Origin: Kyrpidia spormannii
GTDB lineage: Bacteria; Bacillota; Bacilli; Kyrpidiales; Kyrpidiaceae
Length of the DNA: 64,000 nucleotides
Assembly (NCBI RefSeq): GCF_002804065.1
Contig: NZ_CP024955.1
Span: 2,666,001 to 2,730,000, forward strand
Reading direction: 5' to 3'
In this document: positions 44,120 through 63,481 of the stretch, in pieces
Layout: the number at the start of each line of letters is the position of its first letter
Position numbering within the stretch: position 1 is the stretch's first letter
Program-made: the position numbers and the translations under genes
Notes under the pieces: generated by a model
Database searches by the model: none
What the model was told of the DNA's origin: nothing
Seen by the model: only the letters and a program-made list of their open reading frames with translations

Positions 44120-44153
44120 GCCCAGAAGCTTGGCCTGAACGGAGAGCGGGAGT

Positions 44154-44486
44154 TCACGTTCTTGGAAGTCGATGAGAGCCAGCCTGTCCTCTCGACTGAG
44201 CGAGGCGAGATTTTTTTTCCAACCAAGACAATTGTGTGCTCAGGCGACCGACCTCCGCATACAATTCTTGGATCTTGTCTTCATATTCTGAACGAATTTT
44301 GGCCAGCTGTTTATTCTCAGGTTCAAACGCTCGTGGCCAGTTTTCCAAGGCGAGATCCCGCCACTGGCGGAGTTGATTGACGTGAACACCGTACTCGGAT
44401 GCCAACTGAGATAACGTCTTTTCCTCTTTGAGAATTTCCAGGACAACTTTGGTTTTGAAGTCAGTATCATACTTTTTTCTCGGCAT
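44154..44486 (-). CDS. IS3-family transposase OrfA (helix-turn-helix)
   Basis: 110 residues: MPRKKYDTDFKTKVVLEILK, then LSQLASEYGVHVNQLRQWRD (helix-turn-helix near 30-50) and a leucine-zipper-like helix to about 90. The run of eight A at about 44210-44217 (minus strand TGGAAAAAAAATC) allows a -1 shift into the OrfB frame, giving KKNLASLSRED and so on. The tail after the A-run is the non-shifted ending. Confidence 0.92.
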   Translation of the reverse strand: MPRKKYDTDFKTKVVLEILKEEKTLSQLASEYGVHVNQLRQWRDLALENWPRAFEPENKQLAKIRSEYEDKIQELYAEVGRLSTQLSWLEKKSRLAQSRGQAGSHRLPRT

Positions 44487-47403: not shown

Positions 47404-48852
47404 GGCGTTGTCCCAGGTTTCGTGGAAATTTGAAGGTGGCGGTCTCCTGAACCCGTTTGGTATAACGGGATTGGGCACAACAAGAAAGGAGAACGCCACC
47501 TATGAAATCAAGGGTACATCAAATTGTGAGAAATGACCAGAGCCTGTTTTCGACACTAGATCCTTTTCAGCAGTTCACCCTCCAACTGTCGCTACTGGAC
47601 GTGATGGAGAGCGCGAAAGAGGGACTCATGGCCTTGGCGGTTCAAACCGGGCTTCGAGTGATTCAACTCATGATGCGAGAGGAAGTCGAAGCTTTGGTGG
47701 GCCCCAAAGGGAAACACAATCCAAAGCGCAAGGCTGTGCGACACGGAAAGGAAAAGGGCTCCGTGATGCTTGGGGGCCGGAAGGTGGCTGTGGAAAAAGT
47801 TCGGGTACGCAGCGTCGACGGTCATGAAATCCCGCTGGAGACCTACCAGGCTTTTCAGGATCCAACGCTGCTGACCCAGGCCGCGTTGGAGCGGATGATT
47901 CATGGCTTGTCGACCCGAAACTATGCGTTTGGTCTTGAGCCGGTCGGAAACGAGGTGGAAACCTCCGGCACGAGCAAGAGCGCCGTTAGCCGGCGTTTCA
48001 TTGCCGCCACGAAGAAGCTGCTCGAAAAACTCATGCAGCGGCGCCTGGACGACCGCCGGTACGTGGCGCTAGTTATTGACGGGATCGTCATGGCGGACCA
48101 CACCGTAGTGGCGGCATTAGGGATTGACGTAGGGGGACAGAAGCAGATCCTGGGCATCTGGGAGGGAGCGACAGAGAATGCGACAGTGTGTAAAGGACTG
48201 CTGACCGATCTTGTGGACCGGGGACTGAAAACCGATGATGGGATCCTGGTCGTCATCGACGGGAGTAAGGCTTTGCGTGCCGCAGTACGGGACGTGTTTG
48301 GAGAGACGGCATTGGTTCAGCGGTGTCAGGTGCACAAGGAGCGCAATGTCCTGGAGCATCTGCCGGAGAAACAGCGAGATTGGGTCAAGAGGCAATTGCG
48401 GGAGGCCTGGCGCCAGGAAACCGAAAAAGAGGCACTGGCGGCCCTGCGGCGCTTGGCGGCACAACTTGAGAAGTCGCATCCAGGAGCAGCAGCCAGTTTG
48501 CGCGAGGGGATGGAAGAGACCGTGACCGTGATCCGGCTGGGAGTTCCGGAACTGCTTCGGGGAACTCTGCGCTCGACGAATGCGATCGAATCAGCCAATG
48601 AGAAGGTGCGGATGGTGAGTCGGAACGTCAAGCGCTGGCAGAATGGGGAACAGGTGCTGCGCTGGGCGGCTGCAGGATTTTTGGAGGCGGAGAAAAAGTT
48701 CAGGACCGTCAAGGGATTTCGCCAAATCCCTCTGCTTCTTGATGCATTACACAAATGTGTACATCCGCAACCACAGCAGGAAAACAAATCCATCACCGCG
48801 TAAATTGAAGAAAAAGGCCGTCACGAAAATCCACGACGACCGGGACAACCTC
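47404..48852. mobile_element. IS256-family insertion sequence, copy 2 (1449 bp)
   Basis: Starts GGCGTTGTCCCAGG, ends GACAACCTC. The 8-bp duplication ATCATTTG is at 47396-47403 and 48853-48860; the last G is the first base of the next repeat, so the insertion lies exactly at a spacer-repeat border. Without it the spacer is 37 nt. Nearly identical to copy 1 but 9 bp longer. Confidence 0.96.
47502..48803 (+). CDS. IS256-family transposase, copy 2
   Basis: 433 residues, almost identical to the product of copy 1 (8795-10087). Differences I see: three extra residues after GLLTD (LVD), Thr for Pro in KTDDG, ILGIWEG for ILGVWEG, EALVG for ETLVG, KSHPG for KAYPG, and Phe for Ser in DPFQQF. DDE residues and the C/H block are unchanged, so it should be active. 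Confidence 0.96.
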   Translation: MKSRVHQIVRNDQSLFSTLDPFQQFTLQLSLLDVMESAKEGLMALAVQTGLRVIQLMMREEVEALVGPKGKHNPKRKAVRHGKEKGSVMLGGRKVAVEKVRVRSVDGHEIPLETYQAFQDPTLLTQAALERMIHGLSTRNYAFGLEPVGNEVETSGTSKSAVSRRFIAATKKLLEKLMQRRLDDRRYVALVIDGIVMADHTVVAALGIDVGGQKQILGIWEGATENATVCKGLLTDLVDRGLKTDDGILVVIDGSKALRAAVRDVFGETALVQRCQVHKERNVLEHLPEKQRDWVKRQLREAWRQETEKEALAALRRLAAQLEKSHPGAAASLREGMEETVTVIRLGVPELLRGTLRSTNAIESANEKVRMVSRNVKRWQNGEQVLRWAAAGFLEAEKKFRTVKGFRQIPLLLDALHKCVHPQPQQENKSITA

Positions 48853-48859
48853 ATCATTT

Positions 48860-49265
48860 GTTTCCATTCCTCATAGGCACGCTACGAACATGTCGTCGAG
48901 CAAATCTTCGGCACGTTCGTCGTGGTTTCCATTCCTCATAGGCACGCTACGAACGAACCTCGGAAGTTGAGTGTACCGACATGCGATAGTGAGCGTTTCC
49001 ATTCCTCATAGGCACGCTACGAACTTGTTTTGCCGATTTTCCACCTCCCGACGAACCTGGCTGTTTCCATTCCTCATAGGCACGCTACGAACCACCACGC
49101 AAGATGTAATCTCCGAGGAAAACTGCGGGTCTCGTTTCCATTCCTCATAGGCACGCTACGAACGCCGGCGTTCCAGTCATCCTGATCCCGGGGTCCTGAG
49201 TTTCCATTCCTCATAGGCACGCTACGAACCCGCTTGTCCTCGTCGTACACGGCGCCGTTGCACAG
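48860..49265 (-). CRISPR. CRISPR array 4, segment C (6 repeats)
   Basis: Repeats at 48860, 48924, 48993, 49062, 49133 and 49200. The last spacer (from 49230) is cut after 36 nt by the casposon; its final 14 nt, GCGCCGTTGCACAG (49252-49265), are the target duplication. Confidence 0.98.
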
Positions 49266-50394
49266 GGGGCTAGCGTAAAGGGGAGGCGATCAGAGTCACC
49301 CACCAAAATATGGATTGGCACAATTCTTGCATGTGTCCACCCATCCCCACAGCTTCCACCTTCTCCCATCTCACCCCATCCCACCACCTTCCACCCATTT
49401 CCATGCCACCCCATCCATGCCCTCCCATCTCACCCTATCCAAAAAATAGCCATATAATTTTCACACAATTAACCCCATAGGCCCATAGTCCTATCCCCCT
49501 ATATTCACAATTGTATCAGCATCCCACACAATTCCATCCCTCTCCGTTTTCGCAATTGTAGCCACATCTCACACAATTCCCCTTCCTATCCCGCCCATAT
49601 GTCGGCAACATGTCTCCAATATTCCCGCATCATGTTGTCCGTCTCTCATGGACTACAATTATACGTTCGCCACCCCGGGAACCGCCGCCCAAGGGGACTA
49701 CCGCCGCCCCCGGCTCGCCCCCGGGGACAACCGACCGGACACCCCCCGCCCCGGGAATCCCCGTCGAATCCTCCGCCACCCCAACCTATTTCCATAATCC
49801 GTAAACCCTTCCATTTCTACCGGCCCATCTGAGGCATGAAAAAAGGGCGGGGAATATCCTCATACCCCCGCCACCGAATCGCCCCCGTCTCCGCCCGCCC
49901 CTAGCGGTCCCCCGGGGACAACCCGCCGGACATGATCCTGTCGCCCGTTTCCCCCGCCCGACCAATGGAGACCGCCCCGGGAATACCAGTCCGGTCCCCT
50001 ACAGCCCAGCGATCCAGGGCGGTCCCAACAATCTCCTACGGTCCAGGGCAATCCCATGTCCCCCAGGGCAACCCGGCATGATTCTGCCACCGTCCGCCCA
50101 CTCCCGGGCAATCCCACGGCATATCAATCCGCCCGCCACCGCCCCGCCCACTCCCGCCCCGTGAACCGCCGCCCAGGGCCGTCCCTGTCGCATTCGTCTC
50201 CGCCGATCTCGAGTTTTCCCGCCCCGGATAGCGGCAACATAGCGACACCCCGCCAGCATGATACCGGCAAAATAGCGGCATTCCCGTCCACTCCGCCCCG
50301 GGACACCCCAGGCCACCCCACGGCAACCCACGGCAGACCACGCCGGGAACCGCCGCCCCGGCTTACTTTCGTGCGGTGAAGTGGGAAAGGAAGA
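49266..50394. repeat. Casposon left terminal inverted repeat (1129 bp)
   Basis: Same length as the right copy (62353-63481) and identical in every part I compared, including the outer 80 bp and the inner end up to GGAAAGGAAGA. It contains tandem motifs: CTCCCATCTCACCC twice near 49366 and 49424, and two 33-bp direct repeats (49503-49535 and 49548-49580) built on CAATTGTA and CACACAATTCC. The inner 500 bp are very GC-rich. No gene is supported in it. Confidence 0.96.
49845..49872 (-). terminator. Outward-facing terminator in the left inverted repeat
   Basis: On the minus strand GGCGGGG pairs with CCCCGCC around a 13-nt loop, followed by a run of six T. It would stop transcripts leaving the casposon toward array segment C. 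The mirror copy is at 62875-62902 on the plus strand. Confidence 0.7.
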
Positions 50395-50593
50395 GGGCAA
50401 AAGAAAAAAATCCAGCCGGTGCCGGGGGAGGTAAGGGGATTAAACCCACTAAAACTATCGTTTAGACCTGGACTAGATTCTAGAGCCCTTTTTGGGGTAA
50501 TATGTTTATGGAGTTACGGAAATCAACCAAGATTGACATCTTAAACTTGCCGATATTTACAGGTCTCACATTCCCAATGAGGAGGTAAGACAT

Positions 50594-50935
50594 TTGGAGA
50601 AGTACGATATTTTATTTCTCGTTCCTCGTGAACAGGCTGAAGGAATTTATAAGGATAAACCAGATTCTATCGACGTACTTGTATGGAAATCACAAAACTG
50701 GATAGACTATACTATATTCGGATTGAACATTTTACAGCATCTTGAGTGGCTGTATCAGACATATTTGTCACTTAGAAAGGTGAAGTATACGGGAAAAGAG
50801 ATTAAAATAATTCGATATGATGATCGAACTGAACTAAACTTAAATAATTATAGTTTAGATGAAATAACCCCTGAACTAATTACAAGTTTATTTAATCAAC
50901 TAGGCAACGATACCAGTAAGAATCAATCGCCGTAA
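50594..50935 (+). CDS. Unknown small casposon protein
   Basis: 113 residues, start TTG 50594 behind GGAGG (50581-50585). Rich in Asp, Leu, Ile and Lys and markedly more AT-rich in codon use than the rest of the element, with a possible helix INILQHLEWLYQTYLSLRK. No family recognised. First gene inside the left inverted repeat, alone on its strand. The AT-rich DNA here (50.45-51.55 kb) suggests a separate origin from the GC-rich operon. Confidence 0.6.
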   Translation: MEKYDILFLVPREQAEGIYKDKPDSIDVLVWKSQNWIDYTIFGLNILQHLEWLYQTYLSLRKVKYTGKEIKIIRYDDRTELNLNNYSLDEITPELITSLFNQLGNDTSKNQSP

Positions 50936-51055
50936 TAGAAAATCTTATTCCAAGATCTGTGACCGGCAGGATGTTTACTGGAAACATTGCCAGCGTTTAT
51001 TTACTTCCGACGATTTTTCTTGGCCTCTACGGGGCGTGAAGAAAATGAGAATTGG

Positions 51056-51442
51056 TTATTTCTTGTACATACTTTCAATGATCAAATGGTCCATAGGATC
51101 ATTTTCTTTTTTCCATCTATGCAAGTATTCTATCACCTCGTCAGGAGTATCAAAGTACATCACTAAATTGGGGTCAGTTTCTTTATTATTCCATAAAGCA
51201 TAATCTCCCTCTGGTAAGATTGTAATATACCATGTTTTGGAGTCATCATGGGCGATTTCAAAAGAATTTTGTTCCAAACTTTCAACCCCTAAGAAACCTA
51301 ACGCCTTTGCCAAACGTCCTTTGCTCATTTTTCGTTTCCTCCCCAAAATGATTGGTGTTTCAAACATTAGATATAGAGCAAGAGCAAACAGGATGATGTA
51401 TATGACATCAGCGGTGTGCGACCAAAGGATAAAATCATCCAT
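51056..51442 (-). CDS. Unknown casposon protein with one membrane segment
   Basis: 128 residues. Residues 11-34 form a membrane helix (VIYIILFALALYLMFETPII), followed by a basic stretch GRKRKMSKGRLAKALGFLG and a cytosolic beta-rich part with ILPEGDYALWN and FDTPDEVIEYLHRWK. It is downstream of the casposase on the same strand but separated by 135 bp, and is AT-rich like its left neighbour. Function unknown; it may be a cargo gene. Confidence 0.65.
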   Translation of the reverse strand: MDDFILWSHTADVIYIILFALALYLMFETPIILGRKRKMSKGRLAKALGFLGVESLEQNSFEIAHDDSKTWYITILPEGDYALWNNKETDPNLVMYFDTPDEVIEYLHRWKKENDPMDHLIIESMYKK

Positions 51443-51577
51443 TTACTGCCCATTCCCTCTCTTCTCTGTTAACTAAATTCTCGATGTCCGTACCACATAA
51501 GATAGATACGACAATTAAACCGACAATCCTCTCTGGCTGATAATTATGTTGTCACATCCAAGGCACCCGGACGGGGA

Positions 51578-52939
51578 TTAACCGCCCGCCCGGTGCCGCC
51601 GGTATTTCGTCCGAAAATACTCCTGGCACTTCGAACAGTATTTCGGGCTTGTCTTGTTGTGGTGCATCGTAGTCGGATAATCCATCGGCCCGCCGCACTG
51701 GATACACCGCCCTGCCTTCTCCCGCTCTTTCCGGTACCGCCGCTGTTTCTCCCGGTCCCGGCACCGGTAGGAACAGTACATTTGTTTCGGGTTGTTTGGG
51801 ATAAATTCGCGGTCGCAGTCGCTTGCCGCACATATGCGGGCGGTACCCGGCTTGCTTTCATTTTTGGCATCCTTCTGTTCATACTCCCGGATCGGAACGG
51901 GCAAAAACTCCAAACCGTCCGGGCGTTTTATGCGTACTGTCGTCGGTACGGCAGGCGGTGCGGCGGGCGATTTCAAGACCTCCGCCAATGGTTCGACAAT
52001 ACGTTCAAACCGTCCCCGGACCTCTTTCGTCGCCACCCGGTCATGCCACTGCCGGGCAAAATCCGGGTTTAAGACGCATGTTCCGTCCGATTTGTAGATG
52101 AAGGATTCCACGCGGGCGTATAATCCCGGTTCACCCGGTTTCATGAATGCGGAAAACACCGCCCGGTCAATGATCGGGCGAACCGGTTCCACCACATCAT
52201 AGACCAGTGACGGGCGGGTGGCGTGGTACGCATGAAGCAGGGGAATGTCCGGGTCTATCCGGTATTCGACGATCACCCGCCGGGCGAGACCGGCGAGAAT
52301 CGTATAGGCATAGTTCAGCGTGGCGTGAAACGGTGACACCGCTCGCCGTGGTGTCCCCGTCTTCGGGGACGAGCGGGGGCCGACGGTCTGCCAGTCACGG
52401 GACGGAACCCGAGACGGGCGGTCAAACCGAATCGGGATACCAGCGACACAACCCCAGTAGACCGCCGCCGCCCGGGCTTCCACCAACCGCAGGGCGTCCA
52501 AGCTGTCCGGTTCCGCTTCGACGGGGACCGCCGGACATTCCTCAATGATACCGGCCTGTGCAAGCCACTGGAGTACCCTCCATTCGCCCGCAATTTTGGC
52601 TTCGATCATGGGCCGGGCCAGGGCCAACCGTTCCCATTCGCCCATTCGGGCCTGCCGAGCTTTCGTGTGGGCGGACACATGCCCGGCGGGAATGACTTCG
52701 GCCTGTATTTCCGCGTGTTCGTCAATCACCGTGAACGCCACCCCGTGCCGGTTCAGCCATTCAAACACGTCGAACGAGAGGGAACCGCCCCAGCAGGAAA
52801 CGATGATGTGGTCCACGTCCGGGCGGCTTGCTTCAAATACCGTCCGGCGGTTGAACTTCGATCCGAACCGTTCCGTGACCACTAGATTCCCGCGTTCCAC
52901 GCTCAACCCCACCATGCCCACGGCCCTGTAGATACGCAT
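51578..52939 (-). CDS. Casposase: Cas1-family transposase with C-terminal zinc fingers
   Basis: 453 residues from ATG 52939 (ATG 52945 touches the ribosome site, so the second is preferred). The Cas1 core keeps the catalytic residues: Glu in LVEARAAAVYWG near 154, His in LLHAYHATRPSLVYD near 235, and Asp/Glu in YDVVEPVRPI near 246. The N-terminal beta domain is shown by VVTERFGSKFNR and HIIVSCWGGSLSFD. Unlike CRISPR Cas1, about 90 residues are added at the C-terminus with two cysteine clusters: CAASDCDREFIPN then YCSYRCRDREKQ, and CIQCGG then YCSKCQEYF, in a very basic setting. These probably bind the element ends or the target. The protein should integrate the casposon with a 14-bp duplication. 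Confidence 0.96.
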   Translation of the reverse strand: MRIYRAVGMVGLSVERGNLVVTERFGSKFNRRTVFEASRPDVDHIIVSCWGGSLSFDVFEWLNRHGVAFTVIDEHAEIQAEVIPAGHVSAHTKARQARMGEWERLALARPMIEAKIAGEWRVLQWLAQAGIIEECPAVPVEAEPDSLDALRLVEARAAAVYWGCVAGIPIRFDRPSRVPSRDWQTVGPRSSPKTGTPRRAVSPFHATLNYAYTILAGLARRVIVEYRIDPDIPLLHAYHATRPSLVYDVVEPVRPIIDRAVFSAFMKPGEPGLYARVESFIYKSDGTCVLNPDFARQWHDRVATKEVRGRFERIVEPLAEVLKSPAAPPAVPTTVRIKRPDGLEFLPVPIREYEQKDAKNESKPGTARICAASDCDREFIPNNPKQMYCSYRCRDREKQRRYRKEREKAGRCIQCGGPMDYPTTMHHNKTSPKYCSKCQEYFRTKYRRHRAGG

Positions 52940-52941
52940 GG

Positions 52942-54030
52942 TCATTCCCCCGTTTCCGGTTCAGGAAATTGAATGCGTTCCAATGCCATGCGGCGGTATG
53001 TCTCCCATACCTTTTCTCGCGTGAACCCCATGCGTTTTCTCCCTTTTTCATACGCCCGGCGGTCGGTGCGGTTAAGTGCCCGACGGGTGGAATCCATCAC
53101 AAATAACGTCCAAACATAATTTTCGAATTCTGTAATGTCCTCATTGAACGTTTGGAAAATCACCCCTGCTGTCTGTTTCGCAAGCGGATGCCCAAGCCAT
53201 AAAGACAAGATCGAATTAGTGACAATATCTTCCATGTATAATTTCCATTCGCGTAACGGCAGTTTTCCAAGGAATCGTATCAATTCGTCCGGCGTTTCCA
53301 GTTTGGCAATCTTTTGAAACACAGTTAAACCCTCTTTTTTTACGTCCTGCTTGATTTTTTCCGTCGTTTCCCCGGTCAATGCCGCAATTTGTTCGAAATT
53401 CCCGGTCAAATATTCACCGGTAAACCGGTCGAAATCTTTTTCCCATATAGTTTCAATTGGGAATTCGTTTAATTGCTCCTGCATCTTTTTTGCCGTCTTT
53501 CCCTGTGTACGATGTTCGGCGACATATTGAACCAATTCGTCCATATCCCGAGTTTCTCCCGGATCATTAGCAATAAGCGGTGGATATTCCATATCATGTT
53601 TCATCTTTTCATACCGTTTTTCAAGCATCGAAACAATGGTTTGCATCATCAATTCCCATCCGGCGTCAGTCAACGGAAATCCGCCATGCAAGGCCAGAAT
53701 CACCGCATACGCCCCGTCTCCCAGGGCTTTCGACAGATAGGGTGGGGTATCGTCTGCCCGCCATTGGTAATAATCCGCCAAAATGGACAGCCGGGCGGCG
53801 GTTTCGGCGGATTCGATAGCGTCCACGCCCTTCCGCCCATGCCGAATATGCCGAATCGGGCTTTCTATGATTCCCAGGTTCGCCCATCTCATGAACAACC
53901 GTCGGTTGCCTTCGAACCCAAAAACGTTTGTCGGGCGGCTTTCGGTCAACAGTTTTCGGGAGTACTCGGGAAGGATGGGGGATTTTAATACCGCTTTTAC
54001 TGTTTTCCGTCTCGTTTTTCCTTTAACCAT
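52942..54030 (-). CDS. Unknown protein co-transcribed with the casposase
   Basis: 362 residues from ATG 54030, preceded by AAAAGGGGCGAAAATC; the frame also opens at 54087. It ends inside the casposase ribosome site, so the two are translationally coupled. Mostly helical and charged: RRLFMRWANLGIIESPIRHI, GDGAYAVILALHGGFPLTDA, a central LDKEW-rich part and an Arg-rich C-terminus (RRALNRTDRRAYEKGRKRMG). No family recognised. Coupling points to a role in transposition: a casposase partner, a DNA-binding helper or a target selector. It is the best candidate for an undescribed function in the element. Confidence 0.75.
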   Translation of the reverse strand: MVKGKTRRKTVKAVLKSPILPEYSRKLLTESRPTNVFGFEGNRRLFMRWANLGIIESPIRHIRHGRKGVDAIESAETAARLSILADYYQWRADDTPPYLSKALGDGAYAVILALHGGFPLTDAGWELMMQTIVSMLEKRYEKMKHDMEYPPLIANDPGETRDMDELVQYVAEHRTQGKTAKKMQEQLNEFPIETIWEKDFDRFTGEYLTGNFEQIAALTGETTEKIKQDVKKEGLTVFQKIAKLETPDELIRFLGKLPLREWKLYMEDIVTNSILSLWLGHPLAKQTAGVIFQTFNEDITEFENYVWTLFVMDSTRRALNRTDRRAYEKGRKRMGFTREKVWETYRRMALERIQFPEPETGE

Positions 54031-54065
54031 GCGGATTTTCGCCCCTTTTGAACAATGAAATATAT

Positions 54066-54227
54066 TCACATTGTAACGTGTAAGCAAAAACGTGTCAAGC
54101 GGGTTTTCTCGTTATCCAAAAAAAGTTTTATGCCCGTGAATCCTTGATATAACTGGTTTTTTTGAAAGTGGGACATATTATGTCCCGATTGGAAGGTGCA
54201 TTGTAACGTTAGCATGGAAGACGGGGG
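54066..54227. promoter_or_regulatory. Divergent control region of the casposon
   Basis: It separates the casposase operon (minus) from the replication operon (plus). It holds the perfect palindrome GGGACATATTATGTCCC at 54170-54186, and CATTGTAACGT twice (about 54070 and 54191), related to CATTGTAAGTT near 54594. These are likely operators that set the balance between transposase and replication genes. Confidence 0.6.
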
Positions 54228-54512
54228 GTGAACCCGAACATGGAGAGATTCGCGGTCTACTGGAAATGCCCACGGTGCGGCCTGGCCGTCCCCGACTGGC
54301 CGACGGTGCCGCAACCGAACCGGCGGAAATTCATTTGGGCACATGCGGAATCCCATATTGTCCCGGGCGACCGGGTGCCGCCGGTGGAGTCTTCGAAAGA
54401 CCGGGGATACCAGCGGCGGCGGCGGTACGAACAAAAATTGCAGGAATGGATCAATGGCGGGTTTACGCATATCGGGGAACCGCCGAAAAAAGGGGAGGAA
54501 ACCATGCCATAA
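54228..54512 (+). CDS. Small zinc-finger-like casposon protein
   Basis: 94 residues from GTG 54228, or 90 from ATG 54240. KCPRCGLAVPDWP (CxxC near 14-17) with IWAHAESHIVPGD (His pair near 38-42) looks like a single zinc-binding knuckle of the C2H2 kind. A basic Arg-rich stretch (RRRRYEQKLQEW) follows. It is probably a DNA-binding regulator. It lies directly downstream of the palindromic operator and alone before the next promoter. Confidence 0.65.
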   Translation: MNPNMERFAVYWKCPRCGLAVPDWPTVPQPNRRKFIWAHAESHIVPGDRVPPVESSKDRGYQRRRRYEQKLQEWINGGFTHIGEPPKKGEETMP

Positions 54513-54690
54513 TCCGAAATTCATAGTTTCAACTTACCGCGCTATGGCATAGCACACAAAGTTTATATTTTCAACTAACAATGAAATACTTTAGCATTGT
54601 AAGTTGAAAACTCCATAATAGGTAACTATTGACAAAAGTATGCTAGCGTGATAGAGTGACACCAAACTACGAGAAAGGAATGATCCACAT
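54513..54690. promoter_or_regulatory. Promoter and operators of the casposon replication operon
   Basis: TTGACA at 54631-54636 and TAGAGT at 54654-54659, 17 bp apart, form a good sigma-A-type promoter. Upstream, AACTAACAATG and CATTGTAAGTT make an 11-bp inverted pair spaced 11 bp (about 54574-54608), and TTTCAACTTAC near 54528 is a further half-site. The likely binder is the 78-residue helix-turn-helix protein encoded next. Confidence 0.7.
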
Positions 54691-54927
54691 ATGAACACGT
54701 TCAACGAAGAATATGTGACAACCAACGAATTCGCTAGGCTCTTGGGGGTGTCCGTTCCGTGGTTTCGACAAATTCAACGTGGAAACTTCAAAGGACCGAA
54801 ACCGCCGGAACCGGCTGTCAAGATGTCGAAACTCTATCTTTGGAAAAAAGAGGATGCCGAAGCCTATGCGGAAAAATATCGCCGGTACAAAGAACGCATG
54901 AATCATTGGGAGGCGAGCGAATCATGA
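54691..54927 (+). CDS. Small helix-turn-helix DNA-binding protein (excisionase/AlpA-like)
   Basis: 78 residues. VTTNEFARLLGVSVPWFRQI, then QRGNFKGPKPPEP and KLYLWKKEDAEAYAEKYRR, is the layout of winged-helix AlpA/Xis or MerR-like proteins: recognition helix, proline-rich wing, C-terminal helix. It probably regulates the promoter just upstream or bends DNA for transposition. First gene of the long plus-strand operon; the next start overlaps its stop (ATGA). Confidence 0.8.
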   Translation: MNTFNEEYVTTNEFARLLGVSVPWFRQIQRGNFKGPKPPEPAVKMSKLYLWKKEDAEAYAEKYRRYKERMNHWEASES

Positions 54928-55019
54928 GTCAACACGTGGCGGGGATCATCGTTGAAATTACGTCTATGATCGCTGTCATTCACCTTGGCTTGCAAGCATT
55001 CAGCAGGCGACGGCGATAG
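54924..55019 (+). CDS. 31-residue single-span membrane protein
   Basis: MSQHVAGIIVEITSMIAVIH followed by LGLQAFSRRRR. A hydrophobic stretch of about 20 residues with a basic tail, coupled to the preceding gene by ATGA. The coupling and continuous operon structure support translation. Function unknown. Confidence 0.55.
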   Translation: MSQHVAGIIVEITSMIAVIHLGLQAFSRRRR

Positions 55020-55029
55020 ACGGGGAGGG

Positions 55030-55245
55030 ATGCGGATGGAATGGACGGCGACGCGAATTCAGCTTCATGCCATGCGGAGGAAACTCTGCCGGATGCTGGA
55101 CGAGTGCGACCCGTGCGAACACCAGGAATATCCACAGTGCATGAAATGTGTTCACGGGAACCGCATGCGGGAACTCATGAACGAAATCATGAAGACGCAA
55201 AAGCGGGACCGGGAAGAGCGGAGGATGCTTATGTCCGGGACATGA
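55030..55245 (+). CDS. 71-residue cysteine-rich protein
   Basis: ATG 55030 behind GGGGAGGG. Helical, with four cysteines in CDPCEHQEYPQCMKC near 27-41, likely one zinc site, and basic/acidic flanking helices (MRELMNEIMKTQKRDREERR). No family assigned. The stop overlaps the next start. Confidence 0.6.
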   Translation: MRMEWTATRIQLHAMRRKLCRMLDECDPCEHQEYPQCMKCVHGNRMRELMNEIMKTQKRDREERRMLMSGT

Positions 55246-55337
55246 TCGTCCTGCATGAAAAAAAATACCCGGACGCCACCCGGGATGAATTGGTGAAAAT
55301 CTACCACCAACGATTGAAGGGGAGGAAATCAAATTGA
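55242..55337 (+). CDS. 31-residue basic peptide
   Basis: MIVLHEKKYPDATRDELVKI followed by YHQRLKGRKSN. Coupled by ATGA to the preceding gene and overlapping the next start by four bases. It could be an independent small protein; only the coupling supports it. Confidence 0.45.
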   Translation: MIVLHEKKYPDATRDELVKIYHQRLKGRKSN

Positions 55338-55741
55338 GTAAACCCAAGAAAAAACCACAAACGGGCGGCGTTACGCGAATCAAAGCGGCCTGCGGACACT
55401 TAATTTCCTATCCTGCGGCGTGGAATATACTCGCCAATGAAATGAACCGGGCGTTTATTACAGTGTGCGGTTGCGAATGTGGAAATGGGCATGCAATTAT
55501 CGTCCAAAAATCTGGGATTGACATTGTGACCTCAGACAACCCATTACGGCTTGTAGCTACATTGGACAAGATTCCTGTTCATGAAGAAGTTTGGGTGGAT
55601 GAAAGCGGAATTCTACCCTTTAAGTCTACTGCAAACAAAAAGCTCATCCATCAATTTATGAGTCGGTTGTCTAAAATCGGCCCTCCATTAACCGGGAAGG
55701 AAAAAAGAACCCGCGAACTCACAAAGCAATTTTTTCAATGA
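55334..55741 (+). CDS. Unknown casposon protein (135 residues)
   Basis: Start TTG 55334 behind GGAGG. Basic N-terminus (SKPKKKPQTGG), cysteines in KAACGHLIS and VCGCECGNGHAII (near 20-53) that may bind zinc, then a beta-rich middle. No family recognised. The TTG overlaps the stop of the small peptide gene. Confidence 0.65.
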   Translation: MSKPKKKPQTGGVTRIKAACGHLISYPAAWNILANEMNRAFITVCGCECGNGHAIIVQKSGIDIVTSDNPLRLVATLDKIPVHEEVWVDESGILPFKSTANKKLIHQFMSRLSKIGPPLTGKEKRTRELTKQFFQ

Positions 55742-55787
55742 TATTGGATTGTGAGTTTCTTGGGATATGGAAAGGCAGGTGTGACGC

Positions 55788-56252
55788 ATGGCTAAAACAA
55801 AACCCGGTTGGTTTGCTCCAAAATACCAAACCTTTGAAGACTGGGCGGTGGCCCAAAAGAACACGAATTCGGCGTATTTCAAACGAATCGCCCGGGCACA
55901 TGCCCGGTATCCCAAGGCAACCCTTTCCGAGTTGCGGGGACACGGGAAACCAACTGGCCCTCGCATGTGGATGATAACGGAAGACGGAAAGACCAGCGGT
56001 GTACAACCTAAAAACTTCAAAGAACGTAGCAAAATCGGGACGTATTGGAATGATCTCCATAATGCGTTAAACGCGAAAGACGAACAAACCGTAAAGGAAT
56101 TCAAGCGGAAATACAACCGGAAAACATGGACCGATGTTTCTGGGCAAAAACACCGGTTCAATACCGACATCGAAGGTGACATTTATTGGCTTCAACTATC
56201 CGGTGAACTGCGTTTCGGCGAATCCATTTACGTCGCGGAGGTGCCTGCCTAA
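55788..56252 (+). CDS. Unknown casposon protein (154 residues)
   Basis: Starts MAKTKPGWFAPKYQTFEDWA; then YFKRIARAHARYPKATLSEL and RSKIGTYWNDLHNALN. Strongly basic and aromatic-rich, a mixed alpha-beta look, probably nucleic-acid-binding. Residue pattern YPKATLSELRGHGK resembles DNA-binding repeats in phage proteins but I cannot name a family. AGGCAGG precedes the ATG; its stop overlaps the helicase start. Confidence 0.65.
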   Translation: MAKTKPGWFAPKYQTFEDWAVAQKNTNSAYFKRIARAHARYPKATLSELRGHGKPTGPRMWMITEDGKTSGVQPKNFKERSKIGTYWNDLHNALNAKDEQTVKEFKRKYNRKTWTDVSGQKHRFNTDIEGDIYWLQLSGELRFGESIYVAEVPA

Positions 56253-57607
56253 TGAATAAAGCCTTACATCAGCATTATAACACGACGACAACATGCGGGC
56301 AAAATAAAAATCGTCCGCCGATGGAACACCAAAAAATAGCCATCGAAACCCTGCGAAAAATGAAATTTGCATTGCTTGCCTATGACATGGGTCTTGGAAA
56401 AACGAAAATCCTCATTAATTCCGTGCAATTATTGCCGGTCCCGAAAGCCATTGTCGTCACGAAAGCCGCGCTGTTATCCCATTGGAAAAATGAATGCGAC
56501 GTGGAAAATATTTCGGCTTGGGTTGTTCGCGGAACAAAATCAAATGGTTCCGTTTCCAGTATTTCCGAATTCAATGAATGCCATTCCGGTATTTTGCTCA
56601 TGTCTTTTGAAACGATTACGGCATTGGTCGAAACCGTAAATCGAATTTTGGCAAAACCCGTGCAGTTGATTGTAGACGAATCGCACTTGATTACGAATCC
56701 ACGGGCAAAACGGACATGGACTTTGTGGAAATTACGAAAATCCGGCGTGTGGCTGTCCACGGGAACCCCGATCATGAACGATGTCGAAGACCTGTTCCCG
56801 ACTGTCACCCTGTTGAACGTGTGGCGGGGAACCCTGGCGGATTTCCGCCAAGAATTCGAATATCTTGCGTATACGATCACGACGGAATATGGGGATGAAA
56901 TCGACATTTGGGAACCCCAGGACGACGCCCTGGAACGGCTTCACCGGATGCTGGCACCCGTCACCCTTCGCATGACGGCGGATCATTTGAAACCGACACT
57001 CTACATCCGCTGTGTCGAATTCCATGAGGACCCTATCACAGTCGAAAAGGCGGAATCCGACTGCCGTTTGGAGGAACTTACTAACTGGCGGGTAGCCTAT
57101 GCGGACCCGGACAAAAACACGGCCCGGTATGAATTGCTCTTGTCCCTGCTTGAAACCCATGCCGGGAACTCGGTCATGATCGTAACGTCTTTTGAGACGG
57201 TGGCCCGCCGGTTGTCCGAACGGCTTCAGGACGGCGGGAAACGGGTGGGGATCATTTCCGGAAATGTCCCGGCGAAAAAGCGGGACGAGGCTGTCCGACG
57301 TGCCAATGCCGGGGAACTGGACGTGCTTTTGGTGGTGAACGCCGCCGGTCGGGAAGGGCTGAACCTGCCCGGGGTGCCGGTCATGGTCTTTTGGGACGGG
57401 GACTGGACGGACGCCGGGCATCGGCAGGTTATGGACCGCATTCGCCGTGTCACCAGCCGTCACCCGTTGGTCACGGTCTATGAACTCATGGGCACCCGGG
57501 CACCGGACTCCTATTTGAAACGAGTCCGGCAGGAAAAAGCGACGGTCGAACGGGCCTTTTGGGACGGGGTGCGGCTGTCCGCCGTGCGGGAGGGCGAACA
57601 AACATGA
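56252..57607 (+). CDS. SNF2-type superfamily 2 helicase/ATPase of the casposon
   Basis: 451 residues. Helicase motifs in order: MEHQKIAIETLRKM (Q-like region), YDMGLGKTKI near 43-52 (Walker A), IVVTKAALLSHW (Ia), LIVDESHLI near 139-147 (DExH), LSTGTPIMND near 168-177 (III), VMIVTSFETVA, VVNAAGREGLNLPG near 360-373 (V) and QVMDRIRRV near 391-399 (VI). Short and lacking extra domains, like the phage SNF2 proteins. It may open DNA for the polymerase. It is linked to HNH and PolB by overlapping starts. Confidence 0.92.
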   Translation: MNKALHQHYNTTTTCGQNKNRPPMEHQKIAIETLRKMKFALLAYDMGLGKTKILINSVQLLPVPKAIVVTKAALLSHWKNECDVENISAWVVRGTKSNGSVSSISEFNECHSGILLMSFETITALVETVNRILAKPVQLIVDESHLITNPRAKRTWTLWKLRKSGVWLSTGTPIMNDVEDLFPTVTLLNVWRGTLADFRQEFEYLAYTITTEYGDEIDIWEPQDDALERLHRMLAPVTLRMTADHLKPTLYIRCVEFHEDPITVEKAESDCRLEELTNWRVAYADPDKNTARYELLLSLLETHAGNSVMIVTSFETVARRLSERLQDGGKRVGIISGNVPAKKRDEAVRRANAGELDVLLVVNAAGREGLNLPGVPVMVFWDGDWTDAGHRQVMDRIRRVTSRHPLVTVYELMGTRAPDSYLKRVRQEKATVERAFWDGVRLSAVREGEQT

Positions 57608-57957
57608 GTTGGGAAAGCCTCGGATGGAACTATGACGACATGACGGCCCGGCGGCGGATACGGCTGAAATCCCCGGCCCCGGAATGTTTTCTTTGCGGCG
57701 AACGAAACCCGCACACATTGGAAATCCATCATGTCGAAGGGAATCACCGGGGACCGACCGTGCTTTTGTGCCGGAACTGCCATGCCGTGGTCACGGCGAA
57801 ACAGGTGGCGGGACTGGACGACCTGAAACGGTTGAAAGACTCCCGCCGGAAAGAAGTGGCCGGACTCATTCTCATGGCGGACGCCCTGGGGGACCGGTTG
57901 CGGATGCTGGCTGGGATGATCGCTGACAAGCTGGATGAAATCGGGAGAGAATCATGA
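57604..57957 (+). CDS. HNH endonuclease of the casposon
   Basis: 117 residues. Zinc cysteines C28/C31 and C56/C59 enclose the catalytic HNH: IHHVEGNHRGPTVLLCRNCH with H42, H43, H48 and H60. A helical tail of 50 residues follows. HNH nucleases are a common companion of casposons; a role in nicking or recombination of the element is inferred. It overlaps both neighbours by four bases. Confidence 0.93.
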   Translation: MSWESLGWNYDDMTARRRIRLKSPAPECFLCGERNPHTLEIHHVEGNHRGPTVLLCRNCHAVVTAKQVAGLDDLKRLKDSRRKEVAGLILMADALGDRLRMLAGMIADKLDEIGRES

Positions 57958-60900
57958 TGCCGAAGAAAACTGAGACGAAACCCAAAGGAATCCGGGAAGG
58001 GCTTTCGATCAGCACCCGGGCCTATACGGTCATTCGGGGCGGGGAGCAGGACAACAAAACGAAACCCCGCCGGGACTGGAACGAGTGGAATGCGGAGGAA
58101 ACCCACCCGTTCGGGTATCGGATGCTCGTATTTGACACGGAAACCACAAGGGACAGTATCCAAAAGTTGCGGTTTGGTTTCGCCCGGGTGTACGAGTCGG
58201 GGAACGTGCTGAAACGGGTGGACGAAGTGGAAACCCCGATTCTCAAACGACACATTCTCTTCTACGCCGAAGACCTGCCGTCGGAGGAAATCCGCATGCT
58301 GAAAGACTACGCCCGGCAAAACGGTTCCATCGTGGTCATGACCTGGGATGAATTCGTGCGGGACGTGTTCATGAAAGAAATTTGCATACATGGTTCGGTC
58401 ATCGTCGGTTTCAACGTGCCGTTCGACGTGTCCCGGATAGCCTGCGATGTCCAAACCTTTCAGCACGGCAAACACGTGGACGAATTCATTTTCGACATGA
58501 CGGGAAGTGACTTCGATTACCGGGTTTCCATTCAATCCCTCAATTCGAAAGCGGCCTTCATTCGGCTTGTGCCGCCGCGAAACCAGACGAAGAAAAACGA
58601 ATTCGGGGTAGGGCTTCAAGGGCGGTTCCTGGACGTGCGGACATTGATTTGGGCCTTGCACTCCCAGTCGGTGGACCTCAAACGGGCGTCCACGAAACTG
58701 TACAAGGTGAAGCATCCGAAACTGGACACCGACGAACACGGAAAAATGACGATGGAATATATCGAGTACGCCGACCGGGACCCACTCACGACCTTCGAAG
58801 TTGCGGTCGAAGCTTTGCGGGATTTTTATCGTCATCCGCTGGTGGACGCCCGGGGCGAACCCTTGGAACCCCATCGGATGTACAGTGCCGCCAGTGTCGG
58901 GAAAGCCTATTTCCGGGCGATGGGGATTCAACCGTTTCACGTCCAGAACCCTGACTTTCCGCCGGAAATCCTGGGGTATGTCATGGACACGTATTGCGGC
59001 GGGCGGGCGGAGTGCCATTATCGGCGGAAACCGGCGGTGGCCTGCCATACAGACGTTCAGTCCATGTACCCGTCGGTATTCGTGCTCCAAGGATTATGGG
59101 ATTTTGTGACGGCGGACAAAATCCGATACGAACAGTGCGGGGAAGAGGTTGCCCGGTGGCTGGAAACCCTCACCCTGGACGAGATGCTGAAAAAAGAGAC
59201 GTTCAAACGGTTGAATGTGATATGCGAAGTCATACCGGCGGGACATTGGTTGCCGACCAAAGCTGACTACGGCGGAAATTCGTTCAACATCGGGATCAAC
59301 TATTTGGACCTCGGCGGGGTGTCGAAATGGTTTACCCTGGCCGACCTTGTGGCCTGCAAGCTGAAAACCGGCAAAGTGCCGAAAATCCTTCGGGCCTATC
59401 GGTTCATCCCGGAAGGGAAACAGGAAACCCTGCGGCCCGTCGCCCTGCTGGGGAATCCGGACCTTTTGATTGATCCGGCAAAAGACGATTTTTTCAAAAC
59501 GGTTATCGAACTTCGGTTGAAATACAAAGCGATGAAAAAAGACCCGGAGGCCAATAAAATCCAGTACGGCCTGAAAATCCTCGCCAACAGCACCAGCTAC
59601 GGCGTGTTCGTTGAACTGAACCGGGAAGAGTTGAAGGAAATGACGGAAGTGGATGTATACGGGATTGAACATGTGAAAACATGGACGGATACCGTCGAAC
59701 GGCCCGGGACCTATTTCAACCCGATCATCGGAACGCTCATTACCGGCGGTGCCAGGATGATCCTGGGTATTATCCAATGTTTGGTCGAACAGGAGGGCGG
59801 AACCTATGCGTTCACCGATACGGACAGCATGTGCGTCATTGATTTGCGGACGGACGACCTCACCAAACAAGACCCGTATGCCATAGCCAAAAAGGTGTCG
59901 GAGAAATTAAAATGCCTGTACCCATACCGGCAGGAACCGGGCAAGGAAAAATCCCTGTTGGGACTTGAGGACGTGAATTTTATCGACGGGGAATATCGCC
60001 CGCTTTACGTGGTGGCGATCAGTGCGAAACGCTATGTCTTGTTTCGCGTGGTGGGCGGGCAATTGAAATTTTGGAAGGAAACCCGAAAATTCCCGGTTGT
60101 GCAGGGGAGATTGCGGACGTGGAAACAGGACGGGAAAACCCTCGTCAAGCGGACGGGACGCAAACCAAAATTGAAAAAACGGGGCAAAACGGAATGGGGC
60201 AAGTATACGGAACACGGTTTGGGACATTTGATGCAACCGTACCCGAAACCGGAAATGACCAAAGAGGATTTTGAACGGGACCTGTGGAAATTCGTGGTGG
60301 ACGATGTGTTGCGAAATCATCCGGTGCCCGGATATACGCCCCCCCAAAAAAGAGTGTACCCGGATTATGCGGACCTCCCGATTATGGGACAATTCAGCAT
60401 TACGAAACCCCGGTTATACCATATGGTGGAACGGGAGAAGGGGAAACCCTATGCGGACAGCGTGAAACCGTTCGGTTTTTTGACTGTGGCTTATCAACAA
60501 TTGAAAAGCCTGCCCATGTTTTTCTATGATTACCACCCGAAGACAATCGACCGCTACTATTGCCGCCGGGACCGGGCAATTGCAAACGGCCCATGTAATG
60601 CGAAGGCCATTTGCCAGTACCGCGACAAATGTTTGTCGGGACTGGAACCGTCGCCGGTGACGGCGTATATGGACGACGTGCGGTTGTGGGATACGGTGCA
60701 GTGGCGGGATCGGGCGACTTTGGAACCGATGGACATTCGCCCGGTGCCGCCGCTCCCGCCTGATACGATCATGGGGGACGTGATCGAAGTCCCGCCCATA
60801 TCCGGGGTATATGTGCAAACGTATCGGATTTTGTTCGAGGAATACGGGATTCATCCCGAATCGAAGTACGACGACGAACGGGGAAGACCATGCATGCCCT

Positions 60901-61961
60901 ATACCGCCGGTCTCCTGTACCCGACGTATGTCCGGGCGAAGGAAATCCGGATGCAGGGAAAAGTCACCCATACTGTGTATGTCGAAGAAGAAAATGAGGC
61001 AAGCGGATTGCCCGACGACCGCTTGACGCCGATTCTTGATTATGGCGTCAAACCTGTCGAACCCGTTCCCGACCCGGCGGCGGAGTTGTGGAACACGTTG
61101 CGGGAAAAAATCCGCGAAACCAAGGGGAAACGAAAATTGGCGGGGCAGTTGGAAATTACGTATGACCAATTAAAGCGACTTATGAATGGAACCCGGAACC
61201 CGTCGCCGAAATTGTTATCACGCATGGCGGCCCATTTCGGGATCGAAAACAGCGTGGCAAACAAGAAAGACGCCCGGGGACCGAAAGCATTGGAAACGCC
61301 GAAAAATACGGTGTACCCGGTCGGTTATTTGGCGACCCAAGGAGTTAACCCGGATGAAATGAAACAGATATTCCCCGGTACGTTCATGGAATTGTACGGC
61401 GTGGAATATGTGGTGCATACGCCGGAAACGAAAAAATACGTGGAAACCATTCGGGCCGAACAGCGTAAAAGACAAACCCGCGAAATGATCGACGTGTTGA
61501 TAAATGGAAAAATCTCGGCAATCAACACGTCCAACCCTGGGAAACCCGCATGGATTCGCCCGGATGATATTTTGTGGGTATTCGCGGAAAAAACGGTTGG
61601 ACGAAAAACTTGGATTTTGGCGGTCTTAACGAAAACAGGGGAAATCATGGTGATTAAACAAACGGACGGGCAAAACCAATATTTTTTCCAAGCGGGATTT
61701 TTGCCAAAGGCATCTCAACTGCCGCAGGACAAGTATAACGAAATCACCAAAAACGGATACCGGAAAATATGGACCAAACGGGTGCGGTACGTGTCACGCT
61801 TCGACGGGACCGGGTGGTGTCCGAATATCAAGTTTGAGGCGGCATGCAAATTGTATCAACTGAGGAAAACGGACCTGGAGGGGGTGAGGCGGGACAAAAC
61901 AGGACGGCTTCATGCGGCGGATGTGTTGGAAATTGCCGCCGAAAAATACCGGGAAAGATGA
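57954..61961 (+). CDS. Family B DNA polymerase with C-terminal extension
   Basis: 1335 residues, much longer than a typical replicative PolB (about 780). Proofreading motifs: VFDTETTRD near 59-67 (Exo I), VGFNVPFDVSRI near 150-161 (Exo II) and YIEYADRD near 268-275 (Exo III). Polymerase motifs: TDVQSMYPS near 364-372 (A), GLKILANSTSYGVF near 538-551 (B) and FTDTDSM near 619-625 (C). From about 1040 a helix-turn-helix appears (RKLAGQLEITYDQLKRLMNG), and the last 200 residues form an extra domain ending in a helical part. It should copy the element. There is no sign that it is the protein-primed kind beyond its presence in a casposon. Confidence 0.96.
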   Translation: MMPKKTETKPKGIREGLSISTRAYTVIRGGEQDNKTKPRRDWNEWNAEETHPFGYRMLVFDTETTRDSIQKLRFGFARVYESGNVLKRVDEVETPILKRHILFYAEDLPSEEIRMLKDYARQNGSIVVMTWDEFVRDVFMKEICIHGSVIVGFNVPFDVSRIACDVQTFQHGKHVDEFIFDMTGSDFDYRVSIQSLNSKAAFIRLVPPRNQTKKNEFGVGLQGRFLDVRTLIWALHSQSVDLKRASTKLYKVKHPKLDTDEHGKMTMEYIEYADRDPLTTFEVAVEALRDFYRHPLVDARGEPLEPHRMYSAASVGKAYFRAMGIQPFHVQNPDFPPEILGYVMDTYCGGRAECHYRRKPAVACHTDVQSMYPSVFVLQGLWDFVTADKIRYEQCGEEVARWLETLTLDEMLKKETFKRLNVICEVIPAGHWLPTKADYGGNSFNIGINYLDLGGVSKWFTLADLVACKLKTGKVPKILRAYRFIPEGKQETLRPVALLGNPDLLIDPAKDDFFKTVIELRLKYKAMKKDPEANKIQYGLKILANSTSYGVFVELNREELKEMTEVDVYGIEHVKTWTDTVERPGTYFNPIIGTLITGGARMILGIIQCLVEQEGGTYAFTDTDSMCVIDLRTDDLTKQDPYAIAKKVSEKLKCLYPYRQEPGKEKSLLGLEDVNFIDGEYRPLYVVAISAKRYVLFRVVGGQLKFWKETRKFPVVQGRLRTWKQDGKTLVKRTGRKPKLKKRGKTEWGKYTEHGLGHLMQPYPKPEMTKEDFERDLWKFVVDDVLRNHPVPGYTPPQKRVYPDYADLPIMGQFSITKPRLYHMVEREKGKPYADSVKPFGFLTVAYQQLKSLPMFFYDYHPKTIDRYYCRRDRAIANGPCNAKAICQYRDKCLSGLEPSPVTAYMDDVRLWDTVQWRDRATLEPMDIRPVPPLPPDTIMGDVIEVPPISGVYVQTYRILFEEYGIHPESKYDDERGRPCMPYTAGLLYPTYVRAKEIRMQGKVTHTVYVEEENEASGLPDDRLTPILDYGVKPVEPVPDPAAELWNTLREKIRETKGKRKLAGQLEITYDQLKRLMNGTRNPSPKLLSRMAAHFGIENSVANKKDARGPKALETPKNTVYPVGYLATQGVNPDEMKQIFPGTFMELYGVEYVVHTPETKKYVETIRAEQRKRQTREMIDVLINGKISAINTSNPGKPAWIRPDDILWVFAEKTVGRKTWILAVLTKTGEIMVIKQTDGQNQYFFQAGFLPKASQLPQDKYNEITKNGYRKIWTKRVRYVSRFDGTGWCPNIKFEAACKLYQLRKTDLEGVRRDKTGRLHAADVLEIAAEKYRER

Positions 61962-62013
61962 AGACATTTCCTTTCACGCTTCACCGTGATAAAGTGAAAG
62001 TGGGGTGGTCCGA

Positions 62014-62157
62014 TTGCAAGGGGTAAAAGCACCGACGTTAAAACGAACGGTTTTTGAATGCTTGGCATGTCATACGGTGCGGACGGTGGAATCTTTGGGA
62101 GTGGTTATATGGGGACCGAAGTGCCAGACATGCGGGAAACCAATGAAGCGACTTTGA
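62014..62157 (+). CDS. 47-residue zinc-ribbon protein
   Basis: Too short for usual gene calling. TTG 62014 starts a frame with FECLACHTVRTVE (C16, C19) and GPKCQTCGKPMKRL (C37, C40), a classical rubredoxin-like zinc ribbon spacing. It follows PolB by 52 bp. Low certainty on the start codon; the motif itself is clear. Confidence 0.55.
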   Translation: MQGVKAPTLKRTVFECLACHTVRTVESLGVVIWGPKCQTCGKPMKRL

Positions 62158-62318
62158 TTGCCCGGGCATGGGTGGAAGACGGGATGATTCGGTGCCTACC
62201 GCAGATGTGTGAGGCAGGAGGCATGCCGTGCCCAAGATTGGAGTTATGCCATATTGTCCGAGTCACACTAGATAGGGTACAATCATGCCGGACAGAGCGA
62301 AACGGTGAAGGGGCATGA
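62130..62318 (+). CDS. 62-residue cysteine-containing protein
   Basis: MRETNEATLIARAWVEDGMI, then RCLPQMCEAGGMPCPRLELC with four cysteines near 21-38. It overlaps the zinc-ribbon gene by 28 bp in another frame and is followed at once by a terminator. Two neighbouring small cysteine-rich frames make both plausible. Confidence 0.45.
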   Translation: MRETNEATLIARAWVEDGMIRCLPQMCEAGGMPCPRLELCHIVRVTLDRVQSCRTERNGEGA

Positions 62319-62322
62319 CTCC

Positions 62323-62345
62323 CCGCCCTTCGGGGCGGCCTTTTT
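62323..62345 (+). terminator. Terminator of the casposon replication operon
   Basis: CCGCCC (62323-62328), loop TTCG, GGGCGG (62333-62338), then CCTTTTT. It sits just inside the right inverted repeat. Confidence 0.9.
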
Positions 62346-62352
62346 GTTTCCT

Positions 62353-63481
62353 TCTTCCTTTCCCACTTCACCGCACGAAAGTAAGCCGGGGCGGCGGTTC
62401 CCGGCGTGGTCTGCCGTGGGTTGCCGTGGGGTGGCCTGGGGTGTCCCGGGGCGGAGTGGACGGGAATGCCGCTATTTTGCCGGTATCATGCTGGCGGGGT
62501 GTCGCTATGTTGCCGCTATCCGGGGCGGGAAAACTCGAGATCGGCGGAGACGAATGCGACAGGGACGGCCCTGGGCGGCGGTTCACGGGGCGGGAGTGGG
62601 CGGGGCGGTGGCGGGCGGATTGATATGCCGTGGGATTGCCCGGGAGTGGGCGGACGGTGGCAGAATCATGCCGGGTTGCCCTGGGGGACATGGGATTGCC
62701 CTGGACCGTAGGAGATTGTTGGGACCGCCCTGGATCGCTGGGCTGTAGGGGACCGGACTGGTATTCCCGGGGCGGTCTCCATTGGTCGGGCGGGGGAAAC
62801 GGGCGACAGGATCATGTCCGGCGGGTTGTCCCCGGGGGACCGCTAGGGGCGGGCGGAGACGGGGGCGATTCGGTGGCGGGGGTATGAGGATATTCCCCGC
62901 CCTTTTTTCATGCCTCAGATGGGCCGGTAGAAATGGAAGGGTTTACGGATTATGGAAATAGGTTGGGGTGGCGGAGGATTCGACGGGGATTCCCGGGGCG
63001 GGGGGTGTCCGGTCGGTTGTCCCCGGGGGCGAGCCGGGGGCGGCGGTAGTCCCCTTGGGCGGCGGTTCCCGGGGTGGCGAACGTATAATTGTAGTCCATG
63101 AGAGACGGACAACATGATGCGGGAATATTGGAGACATGTTGCCGACATATGGGCGGGATAGGAAGGGGAATTGTGTGAGATGTGGCTACAATTGCGAAAA
63201 CGGAGAGGGATGGAATTGTGTGGGATGCTGATACAATTGTGAATATAGGGGGATAGGACTATGGGCCTATGGGGTTAATTGTGTGAAAATTATATGGCTA
63301 TTTTTTGGATAGGGTGAGATGGGAGGGCATGGATGGGGTGGCATGGAAATGGGTGGAAGGTGGTGGGATGGGGTGAGATGGGAGAAGGTGGAAGCTGTGG
63401 GGATGGGTGGACACATGCAAGAATTGTGCCAATCCATATTTTGGTGGGTGACTCTGATCGCCTCCCCTTTACGCTAGCCCC
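62353..63481. repeat. Casposon right terminal inverted repeat (1129 bp)
   Basis: Mirror image of 49266-50394. On this strand it shows long G-rich tracts (GGGATGGGGTGAGATGGGAG and similar, 63310-63410), the two 33-bp direct repeats at 63167-63199 and 63212-63244, and an outward terminator at 62875-62902. No gene is supported. Confidence 0.96.
62875..62902 (+). terminator. Outward-facing terminator in the right inverted repeat
   Basis: GGCGGGG, 13-nt loop, CCCCGCC, then TTTTTT. Mirror of the one at 49845-49872. Confidence 0.7.

Follow-up and report, generated by a model that had tools for sequence, protein, structure and literature searches.

The gene considered here, P0001, lies on the minus strand at 52942–54030 of the window (the whole 64-kb stretch of DNA that was analysed), and is the first gene of the operon that also encodes a casposase. 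Its frame runs from an ATG at 54030 to a TGA at 52944–52942 and specifies an orphan protein of 362 residues; the open reading frame of this length placed at 52942–54030 in the preliminary description is confirmed with exact coordinates, to which we add the minus strand. When this DNA was shuffled 2000 times, the longest frame reached 200 codons, and casposon-like codon use is +0.20 for the P0001 frame versus −0.16 to −0.40 for the other five. A frame length beyond that of the shuffles, together with a codon use unique among the six frames, argues that P0001 is a genuine gene. A longer version could begin with a TTG at 54087, but as this codon falls within a canonical promoter (TTGACA-N17-TACAAT), the ATG at 54030 is the likely start. 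The GC3 of P0001 is 0.52 versus 0.71 for the casposase. At the 3′ end of the gene, the stop codon shares bases with the casposase start codon in an ATGA sequence (52942–52945, minus strand), and a Shine-Dalgarno-like run (GGGGGA) is found just 5′ of the casposase ATG, within the P0001 gene. Thus, the earlier statement that the gene ends inside the casposase ribosome site holds as to the tight coupling, with the overlap now located precisely at the casposase start codon. Overlaps of 4 nt are common in prokaryotic operons, and the overlap by itself is weak evidence for a partnership; it becomes meaningful because such an overlap is conserved across archaeal casposons (see below).

The casposase (51578–52945, minus strand) is a Cas1 homologue of 455 residues (Pfam Cas_Cas1, 4.4e-27), for which the best PDB match is the Methanosarcina mazei casposase (6opm, 7.5e-15). 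Residues E156, H238, D250 and E253 are conserved in the alignment, and the tree places the protein with archaeal casposases against CRISPR Cas1 (support 98/96), albeit on a long branch. At the C-terminus, a cysteine-rich, zf-CGNR-like region (below cut-off) replaces the archaeal C-terminal helix-turn-helix (HTH), and neither the Pfam scan nor the alignment revealed the HTH fused to Cas1 that is the mark of family 2. The cysteine-rich region (51578–51850) is also 40% identical to a stand-alone protein of 79 residues in another Bacillota genome (L009, 1486–1725), where it lies outside any casposon seen in that genome.

Both genes belong to a complete 14.2-kb casposon (49266–63481) bounded by terminal inverted repeats (TIRs) of 1141 bp, of which the left arm (49266–50406, plus strand, starting GGGGCTAGCG) is 100% complementary to the right arm (62341–63481, minus strand). 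The repeat begins with GGGG, like the TIRs of archaeal casposons, and is present in two copies in the whole genome and in none in three relatives. TIRs of 1141 bp that are identical throughout are unusual in length, and their perfect identity suggests recent movement or gene conversion. Transcribed away from the casposase are, all on the plus strand, a homologue of g212, a conserved archaeal casposon protein of ∼212 residues (55788–56252; phmmer 2.6e-13), an SNF2-type helicase of 451 residues (56252–57607), an HNH-like protein (57559–57957; phmmer 1e-12 against the archaeal casposon HNH) and a family-B DNA polymerase (PolB) of 1335 residues (57954–61961; phmmer 1.6e-104 against archaeal casposon PolB). 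The helicase, which stands between g212 and HNH, is absent from that place in archaeal elements, and the polymerase carries a candidate C-terminal HTH at residues 1052–1097 with a score below the curated cut-off (HTH_3, E 0.0018). The features by which a casposon is recognised, namely a casposase-related Cas1, its own family-B PolB, TIRs and a target-site duplication (14 bp), are all present in the element. Among 398 genomes of the phylum and 398 of the class, the only casposase or casposon PolB relatives are those of the window itself; none were found in phages or IMG/VR, and no PolB relative on plasmids. The region 48000–64000 contains no Rfam family.

The casposon interrupts one single spacer of a CRISPR array (41330–64000), of which 80 full repeats fall within the window. 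The 14-bp duplication is found at 49252–49265 (left copy GCGCCGTTGCACAG, plus strand) and at 63482–63495 (right copy, plus strand), the latter separated by 3 nt from the CRISPR repeat that follows at 63499. Once the element and a single copy of the duplication are subtracted, the spacing of the repeats at the insertion becomes 69, as compared with 65–73 elsewhere in the array. No convincing match to the casposon was observed among the CRISPR spacers, and no earlier description of a casposon inserted in a CRISPR array was found in the literature consulted on casposons. Mimicry of a host gene by the insertion site was also considered and rejected, as the two 3-mismatch matches lie over ordinary coding frames, cover just 20–22 of the 39 spacer bases and are chance-like. 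The same array is broken by two more transposase loci (43373–44486 and 47502–48803); read by eye, these further loci comprise a pair of transposases of the IS3 type and one seemingly of the IS256/mutator type.

As previously proposed, P0001 belongs to no recognised family: relatives are absent from Pfam, NCBIfam, PHROGs, PADLOC and the PDB sequences, and no homologue was found in 299 Bacillota genomes, 61 relatives, phages, plasmids or IMG/VR. Weak matches to AddB (E 0.18), phrog_11524 (0.069) and ThsA (0.024) were taken as chance. The protein is cysteine-free with a pI of 8.4 and has a basic N-terminus, with 13 K/R versus 3 D/E in residues 1–50. Pfam profile scans and a MerR test detected no DNA-binding domain. 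A MerR-like N-terminus noticed by eye (residues 34–92) was discarded, having no Pfam match and a score under that of many of 500 shuffles with a test profile built from just four MerR domains of the same genome. The AF2 model of P0001 alone is all-helical and of low confidence (pLDDT 39), too poor for a judgement on the fold.

For comparison, a casposase scan with a two-sequence alignment against 84,980 species genomes yielded 13 loci, all archaeal, and this set was enlarged to n = 37 distinct family-2 casposases through fetched regions and a search within one archaeal phylum (295 genomes). An intact gene on the same strand, hereafter the slot gene, lies directly upstream in 31/37, a count that does not amount to 31 independent events as the archaeal casposases are mutually related. 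The gap between the slot gene and the casposase ranges from −19 to +11 nt in 30 of 31 cases, with 13 at −4 and 8 at −1. In these elements a g212-HNH-PolB operon diverges from the slot gene and cas1, and the PolB, HNH, g212 and Cas1 of the window are homologous to their archaeal counterparts and retain the same order and orientation. P0001 would thus be the occupant of this conserved slot in the window. Conservation of the gene next to other casposases had been put forward as a check of its role, and here the outcome is divided: the sequence of P0001 is absent from all related casposons seen, while its position is filled in most of them. An orphan sequence with no relative in any search and a GC3 below that of the casposase could in principle be cargo or an unrelated passenger (e.g. 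a counter-defence gene) that by chance came to lie ahead of the casposase. We regard this as quite improbable, given that position, orientation, size class and stop-start overlap are as in the archaeal slot gene, and that the variable extra genes of the archaeal elements stand outside the PolB-to-Cas1 core. The slot is not obligatory, as in one divergent casposon (L100) PolB adjoins Cas1 with no recognisable slot gene. At a further locus (L127; G783:C1:420001-440000), two casposases, each with a coupled slot gene, occur within 10 kb, which we read as nested or tandem casposons. In M. mazei, the cas1-solo gene belongs to a two-gene operon, MM_3249-MM_3250 (PMC7465815); the cited work names the operon alone, and from the layout in relatives we read it as a probable slot gene plus cas1-solo.

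The archaeal slot protein, with a typical size of 283–333 residues, gives a confident AF2 model (pLDDT 89) in which a MarR/MecI-like winged helix (VIA-align Z 9.0, rmsd 1.7 Å, 65 residues) is accompanied by a HEAT/ARM-like solenoid (Z 10.2, rmsd 4.9, 156 residues), where solenoid Z-scores of such size indicate a common arrangement only. The model agrees with the HTH protein with C-terminal HEAT repeats described in family-2 casposons by Krupovic et al. 2014 (PMC4046053). P0001 gave no match to this family by hmmsearch --max or hhalign with either an 11-member or a 25-member profile, and homology to the archaeal HTH-HEAT family was rejected at the sequence level with both profiles; a common function of the two would therefore rest on position. 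The window is not alone in having an occupant that looks unrelated, since the divergent archaeal casposon G1071 (L099/L125), which is readily recognised by its casposase (6.5e-100), PolB (8.7e-220) and g212 (4.2e-25), has a slot protein of 333 residues for which these tests likewise indicate no relation to the archaeal slot family. Within the archaeal family, the median pairwise identity is 33% for the slot protein, 41% for HNH, 47% for g212, 55% for PolB and 68% for the casposase, making the slot protein the least conserved and fastest-diverging of the five core proteins. The slot position thus appears to persist while the sequence that fills it turns over, through either fast divergence or replacement.

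These data bear on the preliminary proposal that the tight coupling marks a stoichiometric partner of the casposase, perhaps the counterpart of Cas2, i.e. a scaffold bridging casposase dimers. The first part is strengthened by the conserved coupled gene at archaeal casposases and the collinear element, whereas the Cas2 counterpart, for which the tight gene coupling is the only point in favour, is most improbable. Pfam, NCBIfam and PADLOC yield no Cas2 match for P0001, and its 362 residues, helical in the low-confidence model, are the wrong size for Cas2, which is a small protein of ferredoxin-like fold. One would moreover expect a scaffold to show no less conservation than the enzyme, yet the slot protein is less conserved. 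Finally, purified M. mazei casposase integrates site-specifically and partner-free; the Cas2 position in its tetramer is taken by one of the subunits (PMC6977970), and the enzyme is active alone although its gene is in a two-gene operon (PMC6977970, PMC7465815).

Upstream of P0001, a predicted sigma-70-type promoter (54070–54098, minus strand) consists of a −35 box TTGACA at 54098–54093, a 17-nt spacer and a −10 box TACAAT at 54075–54070. The −10 box is overlapped by a perfect 23-bp dyad, ACAATG-N11-CATTGT (54052–54074), a putative operator, whose second copy lies in the divergent regulatory region (54578–54600) at a distance of 526 bp; no others occur at ≤1 mismatch in the window. Such an arrangement would suit control of the operon by a repressor that the element itself encodes. 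A separate perfect 17-bp palindrome, GGGACATATTATGTCCC, lies between the divergent operons at 54170–54186. Given that P0001 heads the operon and that the dyad is confined to these two sites, P0001 may be mainly a transcriptional autoregulator that binds the dyad over its own −10 box and the divergent copy and so restrains both casposon operons, in which case the coupling would merely tie the dose of repressor to that of transposase. The MarR/MecI-like winged helix of the archaeal slot protein is consistent with this, but no DNA-binding domain is detectable in P0001, and a small HTH_17-like protein of 78 residues encoded early in the divergent operon (54691–54927, plus strand; HTH_17 E 0.0019, below cut-off) is equally well placed and is a candidate for the alternative regulator. 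An archaeal dyad, TCTCC[TC]T-N5-A[AG]GGAGA, is present in the divergent region of 18/33 family-2 casposons, in most cases at a distance of 87 nt to the start of g212 (e.g. L028 6305-6499, L121 11355-11552 and L033 8793-9102). Its arms change symmetrically (CTT/AAG to CCT/AGG), 18 of its 20 occurrences in 633 kb fall in casposon divergent regions, and it is possibly an operator or a leader hairpin of the g212-HNH-PolB operon. As an operator of the slot gene it was rejected: the distance is fixed to g212 and not to the slot gene, so that slot-gene autoregulation is not favoured by it. Overall, we hold autoregulation as the main role of P0001 to be a tentative possibility, on the unlikely side.

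The targets of the elements also differ. Among casposons with the main archaeal slot family, those for which a tRNA could be identified (L118–L120) lie at tRNA-Leu 3′ ends, and the duplications of this family mostly end in RTGCG; the element with the unrelated slot protein (L125) lies at the 3′ end of a tRNA-Arg(cct), and the window element in a CRISPR spacer. Hence, three slot types are found at three target kinds, and the slot protein is the core component that diverges fastest, as might be expected if P0001 selects the target by recognising or bending the site (here the CRISPR spacer) and recruits the casposase to it, in the manner of TnsD of Tn7. A role as target selector has been suggested for casposon HTH proteins (Krupovic et al. 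2014, PMC4046053), and the window casposase is devoid of the C-terminal HTH found in the archaeal enzymes; the M. mazei casposase was inactive when it lacked this domain (PMC6977970). The association is nonetheless confounded, as the casposase sequence splits likewise, and it rests on three types. In addition, the M. mazei casposase shows stringent site specificity in vitro with no partner present (PMC6977970), and a casposon with no recognisable slot gene (L126) has transposed too. Target selection as the main role of P0001 is therefore unlikely in our view. Bolder still, P0001 could found a new family that serves as a separate targeting or assembly subunit for a casposase that lost its C-terminal HTH, such that target choice moved to an exchangeable partner gene and insertion into a CRISPR array was permitted; we offer this only as a long shot.

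The reading that we favour, with a probability of roughly one half, is that P0001 is an accessory DNA-binding or scaffold protein of the casposase that is made in step with it. The two genes would be transcribed together from the one promoter, the ATGA overlap would probably lead to translation of P0001 in step with the casposase, and the protein would act with the casposase on DNA, at either the ends or the target. Repression of its own operon, by way of the dyad at the −10 box, may be a further function of P0001. Such an accessory or regulatory role fits better than that of Cas2 on account of the predicted DNA binding of the archaeal occupant, the basic N-terminus of P0001 and the putative control sites of the operon; a function shared with the archaeal slot family is suggested by analogy of position.

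The CRISPR adaptation enzyme Cas1 is viewed as a descendant of the casposase, which raises the question of how a transposase that works by itself became reliant on a partner, Cas2. In almost every archaeal family-2 casposon, the casposase gene is already tightly coupled to that of a partner; the literature searched revealed no functional test of this partner gene. This partner is the fastest-changing core component, and unrelated proteins fill the slot in elements at tRNA-Leu, tRNA-Arg and a CRISPR spacer. The role of the coupled partner is thereby a defined and testable question, and the window provides an unusual bacterial case for comparison.

With regard to known systems, Cas2 of CRISPR adaptation and P0001 both adjoin the gene of a Cas1-type integrase, but they differ in size and share no sequence match, and the casposase needs no Cas2 (PMC6977970). 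TnsD of Tn7 resembles P0001, in its proposed role of a DNA-binding selector beside a transposase, by functional analogy only. The closest parallel is the HTH-HEAT slot protein of family-2 casposons (PMC4046053), which has the same place, strand and stop-start coupling, a similar size (283–333 versus 362 residues) and collinear neighbours (g212, HNH and PolB), whereas sequence homology is not detectable and the winged helix is not detected in P0001. Bacterial casposons make up family 3, e.g. AceAut-C1, HenMar-C1, NitAL212-C1 and StrAlb-C1, and in AceAut-C1 a zinc-binding region is fused to the Cas1 C-terminus (PMC4046053). Compared by description, the window element is like these in its bacterial host, HNH, PolB and putatively zinc-binding Cas1 C-terminus, whereas no mention of 1141-bp TIRs, an SNF2 helicase or insertion in a CRISPR array was seen in the descriptions consulted.
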